DNA from: Haloterrigena sp. KLK7
Lineage (GTDB): Archaea; Halobacteriota; Halobacteria; Halobacteriales; Natrialbaceae
Length of the DNA: 64,000 bases
Reading direction: 5' to 3'
NCBI RefSeq assembly: GCF_037914945.1
Contig: NZ_CP149787.1
Location: 3,286,001 to 3,350,000, forward strand
Below, one piece after another: positions 17,290 to 40,006 of the stretch. Position numbers and translations under genes: made by a program. The notes under the pieces are model-generated. The model was not told where the DNA came from. It ran no database searches and saw only the letters and a list, made by a program, of their open reading frames with translations. Numbering within the stretch: position 1 is the stretch's first letter; the number at the start of each line of letters is the position of its first letter.

Positions 17290-17313
17290 AAGGACGAGTT
17301 CGAGTCGTCGGCT

Positions 17314-17425
17314 CGGAAGACGAACGAAGTGAGTCTTCCGTAGTTTCGAAAAGTGAGCGAAGCGAACTTTTCGAAGTAGACGACGAGTAAGTCGTCGTCT
17401 GCAGCCCGTCAGACGTAGTCTGACG
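17314..17425 (+). repeat. cluster of four consecutive hairpins after dnaK
   Basis: Four perfect inverted repeats follow one another: stem CGGAAGAC with loop GAACGAAGTGA (17314-17340); stem TTCGAAAAGT with an 11-base loop (17345-17375); stem AGACGACGA with loop GTAAG (17378-17400); stem CGTCAGAC with loop GTA (17407-17425). Stems are 8-10 bp with no mismatch. No T-tract follows, so they are not ordinary terminators. They could stabilise the dnaK mRNA 3' end or be palindromic repeat elements. The first loop is nearly identical to one inside the aldo/keto reductase gene at 39329-39339. Confidence 0.8.
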
Positions 17426-17575
17426 ACGTCGACGACGAGGCCGAAGACGACGAGTAACGAGTGGAGCCTGCTTCACTGTTTTTCGTCGCGCTGTTCGTTC
17501 CAGATCGATCGACCGTCAGAATCGGGGTTGTGGGCCGTGTTGCAACGTCGGTCTGCGGTACAGTCCGGGTAGTGG

Positions 17576-36524: not shown

Positions 36525-36700
36525 CGAACTGAACTCACGAGTTGATTCGAGTAACGCTACCGATGTGTCTCGAGTAACACTCGTTTACAGACGCTGCCGT
36601 CGGGCGATTCGGAGGCAACACTCCGTTGAGCGGGGAACTCGGGGGAACGGTCCGCTCTGTTTATCCGAATATCGACCGACGGCGTTGCCGTGAGTCACTC

Positions 36701-38962
36701 ATGAGCGAGCGATCCGACGAGCGGCCGAATCCGGTACCCGAATCAGCGACCGACTATACCGCGACGTCCCGTCGGCGCCTGTTGCAGGCCGCGGCGGCCG
36801 CCGGCGGCGTCGTCGCGCTGGGCGATATCGCGGGCGCCCAAGAGGCGGAGACGATCGAACTGGGCGGCGAGACCAGCGGCTGGCAGGGCGTCGCGCCCGA
36901 CGACATCGAAGGCGAGACGAACCCGACGCTGGAACTCGAGGCCGGCACGACCTACGAGGTCACGTGGGAGAACCTCGACGGACAGCCACACAACTTCGTC
37001 ATCGAGAGCGGCGAGGGCGAGGAACTCGAGCGGACGGAGCTCATGATGCAGCAGGGCGAGACGCAGACCCTCGAGTTCGAGGCGACGAGCGAGATGGCGG
37101 AGTACTACTGCGAACCCCATTCGGCGACGATGCGCGGGGATATCTCGGTCGGCGGCGGTGGAGGCGGGGCGGAACAAGACGAGGCGGCCGACGGAGAGCC
37201 CGAAGCCTTCTTCGAACCGGGCGCGGAGATCGGCGTGCAAACGCTCGCATCGGGCATGACGGCGCCGACGGACATGGCGGTCGCCGACGAGGAGCAGGAG
37301 CGATACTTCGTCGCCGACCAGACGGGCGAGCTCTGGGTCGTCACGGACGACGGCCTGCAGGACGAGCCGTTCCTCGACGTCAGCGATCGGCTGGTCGAAC
37401 TCGGTACGTTCGAGGGCGACTACGCCGATCCGGAGCAGGACTACGACGAACGGGGCCTCCTCGGGATCGAGTTCCATCCCGAGTTCGCGGAGAACGGGCG
37501 CTTCTTCGTCCACTACAGCGCGCCGCCGAACGACGAGACGCCGGATGGCTGGAGCCACGTCGAGGTCGTCTCCGAGTTTCAGGCCACCGATGACCTGAGC
37601 GCGGGCGACCCCGACTCGGAACGGGTCCTGATGGAGTTCCAGAAGCCCCAGTACAACCACGACGCCGGACCGATGGCGTTCGGTCCCGACGGCTACCTCT
37701 ACGTCCCGATGGGCGACGGCGGCGGGGCCAACGACGACATGGAGGGCCACGTCGAGGACTGGTACGACGGGAACGAGGGCGGGAACGGGCAGGACGTCAG
37801 CGAGAACCTCCTCGGCAGCGTTCTCCGCGTCGACGTCGATCAAGAGGGCGAGGACCGACCGTACGCCATCCCGGAGGACAACCCGCTCGTCGATTCGGAA
37901 GAGGGACTCGACGAACACTACGCGTGGGGCTTCCGGAACCCGTTCGGGATCTCCTTCGACAGCGACGGACGGCTGTTCGTCTCCGACGCCGGCCAGGACC
38001 TCTTCGAGGAGGCGAACCTCGTCGAGGCCGGCGGCAACTACGGCTGGAACGTCAAGGAGGGGACCCACTGCTTCAGCACGGAGAGTCCCAGCCAGCCCCC
38101 GGAGGATTGTCCCGACTCGGCGCCCGACGAACCGCCGTACAACGGACAGGAACTGCAGGACCCGATCGTCGAATATCCCCACGTCTATCAGGAGCAAGTG
38201 GTCGGCATCACGATCATCGGCGGCCACGTCTACGAGGCCGGCGACGTCGCCGACCTCGACGGGAAGTACGTCTTCGGCGACTGGACGGCCGACCCGGCGC
38301 GACAGTCCCCGCAAGGGCGAATACTCGCCGCTTCGGAGCCGAGTGACGGGGACGGAGGGATGACCGGCAACGGCGGCGGCAACCAGACCGAAGGGATGAG
38401 TCCCGACGACCAGGCGGTTCAAGAGAACGTGACGTCCGGTGAGGGCGGTATCGAAGAGGGAGGCTTCGAGAACGAGACGAACGCGACCAACGAGACGGCC
38501 GACGCCGGCGCAGACGTCGGCGGTGGCGGCCAAGAGCAGGTCGTCCCGCGAGACGAACTCTGGGACATGGAGGAACTCCAGCTCGCTGGCTCCGAAGACG
38601 GAACGTTCCCGTACTTCGTCCGCCAGTTCGGGCAGGACCTCGAGGGCAACGTCTACGTGCTCGCCAATCAGGTGGGCGTCCCGGAAGGCGACACGGGCAC
38701 GGTCTTCGAGATCGTCCCACCGGGAGAGGGCGAATCGCTGGAAGCGCCCGAAGAGGGCGAAGCGGTCGCACCCGAGGAGCAGGAGGCCGACGAGAACGCG
38801 ACCGAGGACACGCAGGACGAGCCGATCGCCGAGGACGGGAACGCCACGGACAACGAGAGCGTCGCGGACGGGAACGTCACGTCCGGGGAGAACGCGACCG
38901 ACAACGAGACGCCGAGCGCGAACGTGACGGTCACCGAGAACGAGACCGCTAACGGCTCCTGA
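36701..38962 (+). CDS. Tat-exported cupredoxin fused to PQQ-type sugar dehydrogenase
   Basis: A 753-residue exported protein. The N-terminus is a Tat signal (SRRRLLQAAAAAGGVVALG) cut after AGA. Residues ~50-150 are a plastocyanin-like domain with type 1 copper ligands in GQPHNFVIE and YYCEPHSATM. Residues ~180-560 are a glucose/sorbosone dehydrogenase beta-propeller with ERGLLGIEFHPEF, DGYLYVPMGDGGG and WGFRNPFGISFD. After an internal Gly/Asn-rich loop, the C-terminus is an acidic tail dense in N-glycosylation sequons. The cupredoxin could take electrons from the quinoprotein. The substrate is unknown. Confidence 0.88.
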   Translation: MSERSDERPNPVPESATDYTATSRRRLLQAAAAAGGVVALGDIAGAQEAETIELGGETSGWQGVAPDDIEGETNPTLELEAGTTYEVTWENLDGQPHNFVIESGEGEELERTELMMQQGETQTLEFEATSEMAEYYCEPHSATMRGDISVGGGGGGAEQDEAADGEPEAFFEPGAEIGVQTLASGMTAPTDMAVADEEQERYFVADQTGELWVVTDDGLQDEPFLDVSDRLVELGTFEGDYADPEQDYDERGLLGIEFHPEFAENGRFFVHYSAPPNDETPDGWSHVEVVSEFQATDDLSAGDPDSERVLMEFQKPQYNHDAGPMAFGPDGYLYVPMGDGGGANDDMEGHVEDWYDGNEGGNGQDVSENLLGSVLRVDVDQEGEDRPYAIPEDNPLVDSEEGLDEHYAWGFRNPFGISFDSDGRLFVSDAGQDLFEEANLVEAGGNYGWNVKEGTHCFSTESPSQPPEDCPDSAPDEPPYNGQELQDPIVEYPHVYQEQVVGITIIGGHVYEAGDVADLDGKYVFGDWTADPARQSPQGRILAASEPSDGDGGMTGNGGGNQTEGMSPDDQAVQENVTSGEGGIEEGGFENETNATNETADAGADVGGGGQEQVVPRDELWDMEELQLAGSEDGTFPYFVRQFGQDLEGNVYVLANQVGVPEGDTGTVFEIVPPGEGESLEAPEEGEAVAPEEQEADENATEDTQDEPIAEDGNATDNESVADGNVTSGENATDNETPSANVTVTENETANGS

Positions 38963-39085: not shown

Positions 39086-40006
39086 ATGGCTATCGACGTG
39101 AAAGACGACGCCATGCGCGAGAACGCCTCCACGGCGACCGTTACCGCAGGGGACGCCGAGATTCCGGCGCTCGGATTCGGCACCGCCAGAATGACCGGCG
39201 ACGAGTGCCGACGAGCCGTCGAGACCGCCCTCGAGGTCGGCTACCGGCACGTCGACACCGCCCAGATGTACGACAACGAGCGCGCCGTCGGCGAGGCCCT
39301 CGCCGCCAGCGACGTCGCTCGCGAGGACGAACGCAGTGAGTCCTCGGAGAAGCGAGCGGGAGCAACGCGACACGTGAGCCGCGAGGACGTCTTCGTCGTC
39401 ACCAAGGTCCACCCCGATAACGCCGCGCGCGAGGACGTTCTCGCGTCGACCCGCGCGAGCCTCGAGCGACTCGGACTCTCGACGGTCGATTGCCTCCTGC
39501 TTCACGCGCCGAGCGACCGCGCGCCGCTCGCGGAGACGCTGGCCGCGATGAACGACCTGCAGGACGAGGGCGCCGTCGATCACGTCGGCGTCAGCAACTT
39601 CTCGGTCGACGAACTCGAGTCCGCCCGCGAGCTGTCCGAGACGCCGATCGTCGCGAACCAGGTGAAGTACCACCCCTATCATCACCGAGACGACCTGCTC
39701 GAGTACTGCGTCGAGCGCGACGTCTGCCTGACGGCGTACAGCCCGCTCGCGGAGGGGACCGTGCCGGGCGACGACCGACTCGCCGAGATCGGCGAGCCCT
39801 ACGACAAGTCGGCGTCGCAGGTCGCGCTGCGCTGGCTCGTCCAGCAACCGAACGTGGCGGTGATCCCGAAGGCCTCGAGCCGCGAGCACATCGCGGCCAA
39901 CGCCGACATCTTCGACTTCGAACTCTCGGACGACGAGCTGGCGGCGGTCGCCGACGTCGGCGACGGACTCTGGGATCAGCTGGCCGTCACGCTCGGATTG
40001 CGTTGA
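39086..40006 (+). CDS. aldo/keto reductase with a 20-residue in-frame insertion
   Basis: A protein of about 306 residues with the AKR active site: Asp and Tyr in HVDTAQMYDNERAVG, Lys in VVTKVHPDN, His in LLLHAPSD. NADPH-binding landmarks PIVANQVKYHPYHH and VIPKASSREHI follow. Alignment by eye with AKR patterns shows an extra segment between ASDVAR and REDVFVVTK; at DNA level this is a 60-base insert flanked by a 9-base direct repeat and containing a palindrome. The insert lies on a surface loop before the catalytic Lys, so activity may persist. Starts at 39086 or 39113 are both possible. Confidence 0.88.
   Translation: MAIDVKDDAMRENASTATVTAGDAEIPALGFGTARMTGDECRRAVETALEVGYRHVDTAQMYDNERAVGEALAASDVAREDERSESSEKRAGATRHVSREDVFVVTKVHPDNAAREDVLASTRASLERLGLSTVDCLLLHAPSDRAPLAETLAAMNDLQDEGAVDHVGVSNFSVDELESARELSETPIVANQVKYHPYHHRDDLLEYCVERDVCLTAYSPLAEGTVPGDDRLAEIGEPYDKSASQVALRWLVQQPNVAVIPKASSREHIAANADIFDFELSDDELAAVADVGDGLWDQLAVTLGLR
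39321..39389 (+). repeat. 60-bp palindromic mini-insertion inside the aldo/keto reductase
   Basis: The 9-mer GCGAGGACG occurs at 39321-39329 and again at 39381-39389, exactly 60 bases apart. Inside is a hairpin with stem CGAGGAC (39322-39328), loop GAACGCAGTGA (39329-39339) and stem GTCCTCG (39340-39346). The loop differs by one base from that of the first hairpin after dnaK. The direct repeat looks like a target duplication or a replication-slippage boundary. Confidence 0.6.

Follow-up and report, generated by a model that had tools for sequence, protein, structure and literature searches.

An aldo/keto reductase (AKR) gene of Haloterrigena sp. KLK7 carries the sequence GCGAGGACG twice, and an earlier note had taken the 60 bases from one copy to the next for an in-frame palindromic insert with the behaviour of Rickettsia palindromic elements (RPE). 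What this segment is, where else it occurs, and how it could have entered a gene without breaking the reading frame was analyzed for the window, i.e. the whole stretch of 64,000 nucleotides that contains the gene, and for other genomes.

The insert in the aldo/keto reductase gene

The AKR protein was identified as a clear member of PF00248 by domain search. The exact duplication at a distance of 60 bases was found inside its open reading frame, as had been noted (Table 1). On its own, a direct repeat of this spacing is close to chance and unremarkable; nine exact 9-mer repeats at distance 60 were counted in the window, compared to a mean of 3.6 per distance. Counted from the YDNE..VG motif up to and including the VFVVTK motif, 46 residues were present in this AKR vs. 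26 in the orthologues of 17 genomes, among them two congeneric ones, and the 20 additional in-frame residues of the earlier note were thus recovered. These residues were missing in the congeneric genomes G004 and G005 and in every other genus compared. At this point three other genomes of the genus had longer inserts, of 39, 39 and 57 residues (117, 117 and 171 bp); including the 60 bp of the present gene, all insert lengths were multiples of three. Filled alleles were assigned to G000 to G003, and the empty site was CGCGAGGACGTC in G004 and several other orthologues (GTCGACCGCGAGGACGTCTTC in G004).

Table 1. Positions in the window of the AKR gene, of the parts of its insert, and of related hairpins
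Feature	Position	Strand	Basis or remark
AKR host gene, PF00248, 307 aa	39083..40006	+	Catalytic residues present by inspection
In-frame insert, 60 bp, encodes about EDERSESSEKRAGATRHVSR	39321..39380	+	Empty and filled orthologues; 39330-39389 is equivalent, boundary ambiguous due to the 9-bp repeat
GCGAGGACG, 5' copy, also 5' arm of the hairpin	39321..39329	+	
GCGAGGACG, 3' copy, corresponds to ancestral host sequence	39381..39389	+	Orthologue comparison
25-nt hairpin CGAGGAC-GAACGCAGTGA-GTCCTCG, 7-bp arms around an 11-nt tip	39322..39346	+	
Invariant tip GAACGCAGTGA = GA-AC-GCA-GT-GA	39329..39339	+	Possible tandem G.A pairs, 2 bp, GNA triloop
Second module, degenerate in AKR (GGAGAAGCGAGCGGGAGC...GTGAGC)	39347..39380	+	Intact in relatives as GCGAGC-GGT-GAA-ACC-GCGAGC
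Hairpin of the same type, non-coding, 8-bp arms	17314..17340	+	Downstream of dnaK
Hairpin of the same type, non-coding, 10-bp arms	17345..17375	+	Downstream of dnaK

The fold of the whole 69 nt was no better than that of shuffled sequences (z -0.82), and the claim made here therefore rests on the 25-nt hairpin. The palindrome described in the earlier note must be reduced accordingly: the hairpin is present, but only 25 nt are palindromic, and the remaining approximately 35 nt belong to a second, degenerate module. In the AlphaFold model of AKR, insert residues 79-94 had pLDDT values below 50 and were located between the helix 66-78 and the strand 104-109, with mostly more than 90 for the barrel. 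The insert is thus predicted to form a disordered hydrophilic loop with an intact fold around it.

Another gene of the window (36626-38962) encodes a secreted-looking protein with a twin-arginine-like start, a sugar-dehydrogenase-like body, and a long acidic C-terminal tail rich in Asn-Xaa-Thr/Ser (ENATEDT...NETANGS) that is possibly N-glycosylated.

Architecture and covariation of the hairpin

The core of the element is a hairpin of 25 nt, in which a variable arm of 5-10 bp, the invariant tip GA-RC-GNA-GY-GA and the complementary arm follow each other; the sequence behaves as arm-GA-RC-GNA-GY-GA-arm'. Exactly this structure was returned by RNA folding. The GA/GA positions within the tip, on either side of RC-GNA-GY, may form tandem sheared pairs, by analogy with other nucleic-acid motifs. 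Two base pairs capped by a GNA loop make up a DNA mini-hairpin known for its extraordinary stability (PMC4686876). The hairpin is often followed by the second module, GC-GA-GCGGT-GAA-ACCGC-GA-GC, which is built on the same plan.

The sample used to assay pairing of the arms covered 2.06 Mb of the own genome and two others (G016 and G060); as a control, left and right flanks were exchanged between sites. Among 100 GARCGNAGYGA tips with matched R and Y, 28 had complementary arms of at least 4 bp, compared to 1.67 expected from the swap control. This excess was not found in the same sample for tips with mismatched R and Y (1 of 22) or for those lacking the GNA loop or the GA flanks, all of which were near expectation. 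In a scan that assumed neither the mismatch nor the loop sequence, GA/GA ranked first among the 2x2 mismatches, and GNA first among the loops enclosed by it.

Covariation was scored for 31 coding-array sequences that had not been selected by their arms. The score was 0.461, compared to 0.184 +/- 0.025 after shuffling and at most 0.204 when the partner was slid, and eight of nine pairs had changed on both sides. At the protein level, the arms force the residue pairs D-S, A-A, V-T and G-P, visible in the peptides EDERSESS, EAERSEAS, EVERSETS and EGERSEPS. When the peptide was encoded by random synonymous codons weighted by usage in the own genome, the hairpin arose in only 1.5-3% of the trials. 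No match to Rfam was obtained with three loci.

In the sample of G016 (L137-L156; concatenated offsets 67482, 67528 and 67574), three copies of tgcGAGCGGTGAAACCGCGAgca, a hairpin of the second-module kind, were found 46 bp apart downstream of a gene.

Distribution in genomes

The own genome has a second copy of the 69-nt stretch (88% identity). It lies on the minus strand (1274912-1274980), where it forms the N-terminus of an FrhB-like gene and is read in the same frame as in AKR. Of 61 related genomes, 23 had matches, almost all of which were in open reading frames, on the sense strand and in the frame REDERSESSEKRAGAxRHASRED; the existence of further in-gene copies, on which the earlier reading depended, was thus established.

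A search of 84,980 species genomes gave 41 occurrences of the exact 25-nt pattern CGAGGACGARCGNAGYGAGTCCTCG, in every case in Halobacteria, and there in several families. At least 31 of the 41 copies were called in genes, all of them sense and in frame 0 (EDERSESS); among the other ten, several seem to belong to genes truncated at the end of the extracted piece or overlooked by the gene caller, for which a home-made codon model was used. A covariance model of the hairpin had 4-40 matches in 18 of the 19 genomes that were searched from the same order, the own genome included. Other members of the phylum had 0-2 matches each with one exception, the 1.9-Mb genome G118 from outside the Halobacteria, in which seven were counted. 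Searches of phage and viral-contig collections gave no match to the element, and hence no evidence for viral carriage.

Host genes and insertion sites

The hosts of the copies in related genomes were unrelated to each other. They comprised a CobW-type GTPase, histidine ammonia-lyase (HutH), a P-type ATPase, DNA topoisomerase VI subunit B (Top6B), an HRQ1-like helicase, LeuD, a SagB-type nitroreductase, and others. Further hosts, with the exact 25-nt pattern, were IleRS, LeuRS, Trm1, HMG-CoA reductase and pyruvate dehydrogenase E2 (PDH E2). In Pfam and NCBIfam, the insert-bearing proteins matched their own enzyme families only. Many unrelated haloarchaeal genes, even essential ones, carry the element in frame with no obvious damage.

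Some sites were shared widely. In IleRS the element occupied one and the same site in the four genera Haladaptatus, Halapricum, Halomicrococcus and Halorussus (L320, L336, L341 and L345), and in the CobW-type GTPase inserts were found at the same codon in four genera. Within one genus the latter gene was filled in G036 and empty in G009; its empty site in G026 was CGCGAGGACGAG. The P-type ATPase was filled in one Haloterrigena (G001) and empty in four (G000, G002, G004 and G005), with an empty site reading Arg-Glu-Gly, and a Halomontanus plasmid had a two-unit array in this position. The empty site of Top6B lies within a variable linker and was poorly alignable.

In three hosts, AKR (CGCGAGGACG), CobW-type GTPase and P-type ATPase, the empty sites resembled the element's own end (CGNGAGGNCG), and likewise its start. 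The direct repeat of 9-10 bp that flanks the insert is both host site and start of the element, and is indistinguishable from a target-site duplication. The arms can differ from the host sequence beside them: the CobW gene of G017 has GAGGCC, which was seen in no empty relative.

Arrays of differing length were collected at a hot spot in many genera, namely the N-terminus of the FrhB-like gene adjoining a gene of the nitrite/sulfite-reductase type (L002 1501-1569, L311, L315, L326, L327, L329 and L335; MGTN, MGTD or MGID plus EDERSESS...). In the Halorientalis plasmid pHOS100 (L308, 1467-2018), the N-terminal region of a hypothetical protein encoded right after parA consists of three copies of the element.

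Proposed origin of the insert

The AKR insert is interpreted with good confidence as one copy of a palindromic element dispersed in Halobacteria. Its conserved feature is a nucleic-acid hairpin of invariant tip and variable, matching arms, often with a second module; entry by homology- or microhomology-guided copying and selection for loop lengthening are inferred parts of this interpretation. Copies would enter genes by gene conversion or template switching, although such an event has yet to be observed and an enzyme to be identified, and the very stable hairpin may aid the copying step. The targets would be host sequences already reading Arg-Glu-Asp/Gly, by which strand and frame would be fixed together. 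Empty sites that resemble the element's own start are to be expected from insertion of this kind, a step that is itself inferred. Selection would then keep those copies that only lengthen a surface loop, and complementarity of the arms might be maintained by templated repair or compensatory mutation.

A farther-reading version can be offered only tentatively and is rather doubtful at present. It would regard the element as a mobile or self-spreading class of hairpins that keep their tip but have their arms rewritten with each new copy; fold-back copying at matching host sequence would turn host codons into one arm, and loops of essential enzymes would have been lengthened repeatedly across the Halobacteria.

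Copies outside genes and alternative explanations

Hairpins were found in non-coding DNA as well. Window positions 17290-17460, downstream of dnaK, contain consecutive strong hairpins, two of the GARCGNAGYGA type (Table 1) followed by AGACGACGA-GTAA-GTCGTCGTCT and GTCAGAC-GTA-GTCTGAC, with a predicted fold of -78 kcal/mol for 171 nt.

Orientation was surveyed in about 2.4 Mb, for which three of the genomes were sampled around model matches, for hairpins with arms of at least 4 bp. The results bear on the possibility that the hairpin acts as RNA, i.e. as an element of the mRNA or its 3' end (stability, termination, protein binding) on the transcribed strand, with the coding copies being such hairpins carried into open reading frames. 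In-gene copies were sense in 15 cases and antisense in none. In convergent intergenic regions, the hairpin was nearer to the gene that has the tip on its sense strand in 24 of 25 cases, typically 10-270 nt from the stop codon, and this placement suggests a role in RNA at 3' ends; the computed RNA fold agrees exactly with the proposed structure. Between tandem genes, by contrast, 23 copies were antisense and 15 sense, and 14 copies were located between divergent genes. Moreover, the tip equals a known extraordinarily stable hairpin of DNA as well (PMC4686876), and the gene caller behind the orientation counts was home-made. Since the convergent regions speak for a function as RNA and the tandem ones against it, this explanation is kept beside that by insertion, as a possibility that was judged unlikely but not dismissed. 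The two are not mutually exclusive, and insertion alone leaves the orientation of the intergenic copies unexplained.

Mobilization in trans as a REP- or MITE-like element, by a Y1 transposase (IS200/IS605 or RAYT type) that acts on single-stranded hairpins, was considered improbable. Hairpins on single-stranded DNA are the substrate type of Y1 enzymes, and Y1 transposases (PF01797) were present in 16 of 26 related genomes. However, no Y1 domain was found in G001, G002 and G003, which have the longest AKR arrays, or in G040 with 14 hairpin matches, and the arms differ between copies, whereas the copies of one transposon should share them.

Origin at the protein level, i.e. a selected hydrophilic, ERSE-rich linker of halophilic proteins with the hairpin as a by-product of codon choice, is very improbable. 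It could appeal to GARCGNAGYGAG, which is nearly the degenerate code for Glu-Arg-Ser-Glu, and to the ERSE frame held by the in-gene copies. Yet R and Y covary within the tip (68 matched vs. 12 mismatched tips in the own-genome sample) and the arms go with matched tips; the covarying arms produce the residue pairs listed above; the hairpin is rare under synonymous recoding; and non-coding DNA, for instance downstream of dnaK, contains the same tip and arms. This origin was rejected as contradicted by covariation and codon simulation. An ancestral AKR segment lost in relatives, for which the only argument is its occurrence in four congeneric species, was rejected as practically ruled out by its absence from all other genera compared and two congeners and by the same unit in unrelated genes.

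Insertion of a dispersed hairpin element, as proposed above, extends in-frame palindromic insertion, known from Rickettsia, to a whole archaeal class with many sequenced and some genetically tractable members. A structural signature is added, a tip that stays constant between arms that covary, and it points to the way in which these elements spread. Recurrent odd insertions of the ERSE type in haloarchaeal enzymes are explained, which matters for annotation, alignment and structure prediction, and IleRS, LeuRS, Top6B and others provide natural sets of empty and filled alleles with which insertion tolerance can be tested.

Comparison with known repeat elements

No earlier description of the haloarchaeal hairpin element was found in the open-access literature; most subscription papers were outside the scope of this search, and novelty is claimed provisionally.

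RPEs are short palindromic repeats of about 150 bp that form ten families in Rickettsia. They are inserted in frame into many unrelated genes, including those of core metabolism, encode a consistent peptide, and occur also outside genes (PMC10969869, PMC3733652). The haloarchaeal element resembles them in that its copies are dispersed inside and outside genes and lie in frame in unrelated open reading frames with the host fold kept. Unlike RPEs, which have about 100-150 bp and a long palindrome, its unit comprises about 60 bp with a 25-nt hairpin core, and it resides in archaea and has a constant tip with covarying arms. No RPE model was matched by the insert-bearing host proteins in Pfam and NCBIfam; a direct DNA comparison with RPE sequences was not included. 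The likeness to RPE drawn in the earlier note thus holds for the behaviour, in-frame inserts in unrelated genes, whereas membership by sequence is not supported: the element was not filed as an RPE because unit length, host group and build differ and the host proteins match only their own enzyme families.

REPs are palindromes of 20-40 bp with a GTAG or CGTC tag, in many copies per genome and mainly extragenic (PMC3733652). The REP/RAYT system shares with the present element the short palindrome in many copies per genome, but differs in its extragenic location, whereas at least 31 of 41 exact copies of the haloarchaeal element are in genes. Y1 enzymes were present in 16 of 26 related genomes and were not found in some haloarchaeal genomes with many copies of the element.

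From Haloquadratum walsbyi, MITEs, PATEs and small mobile repeats are known as transposase-free mobile repeats, with terminal inverted repeats or near-terminal palindromes related to IS605 ends; SMR-A has about 110 bp. In-frame coding copies are not known to be described for them, in contrast to the many of the hairpin element, and the size and ends differ, without a comparison of sequences, although both kinds of repeat are haloarchaeal (PMC3119063).

The closest structural counterpart of the tip is the GNA mini-hairpin d(GCGAAGC), since RC-GNA-GY contains the same GNA loop closed by two pairs; the mini-hairpin is a structural motif studied in vitro, whereas the haloarchaeal element is a family of genomic repeats (PMC4686876).
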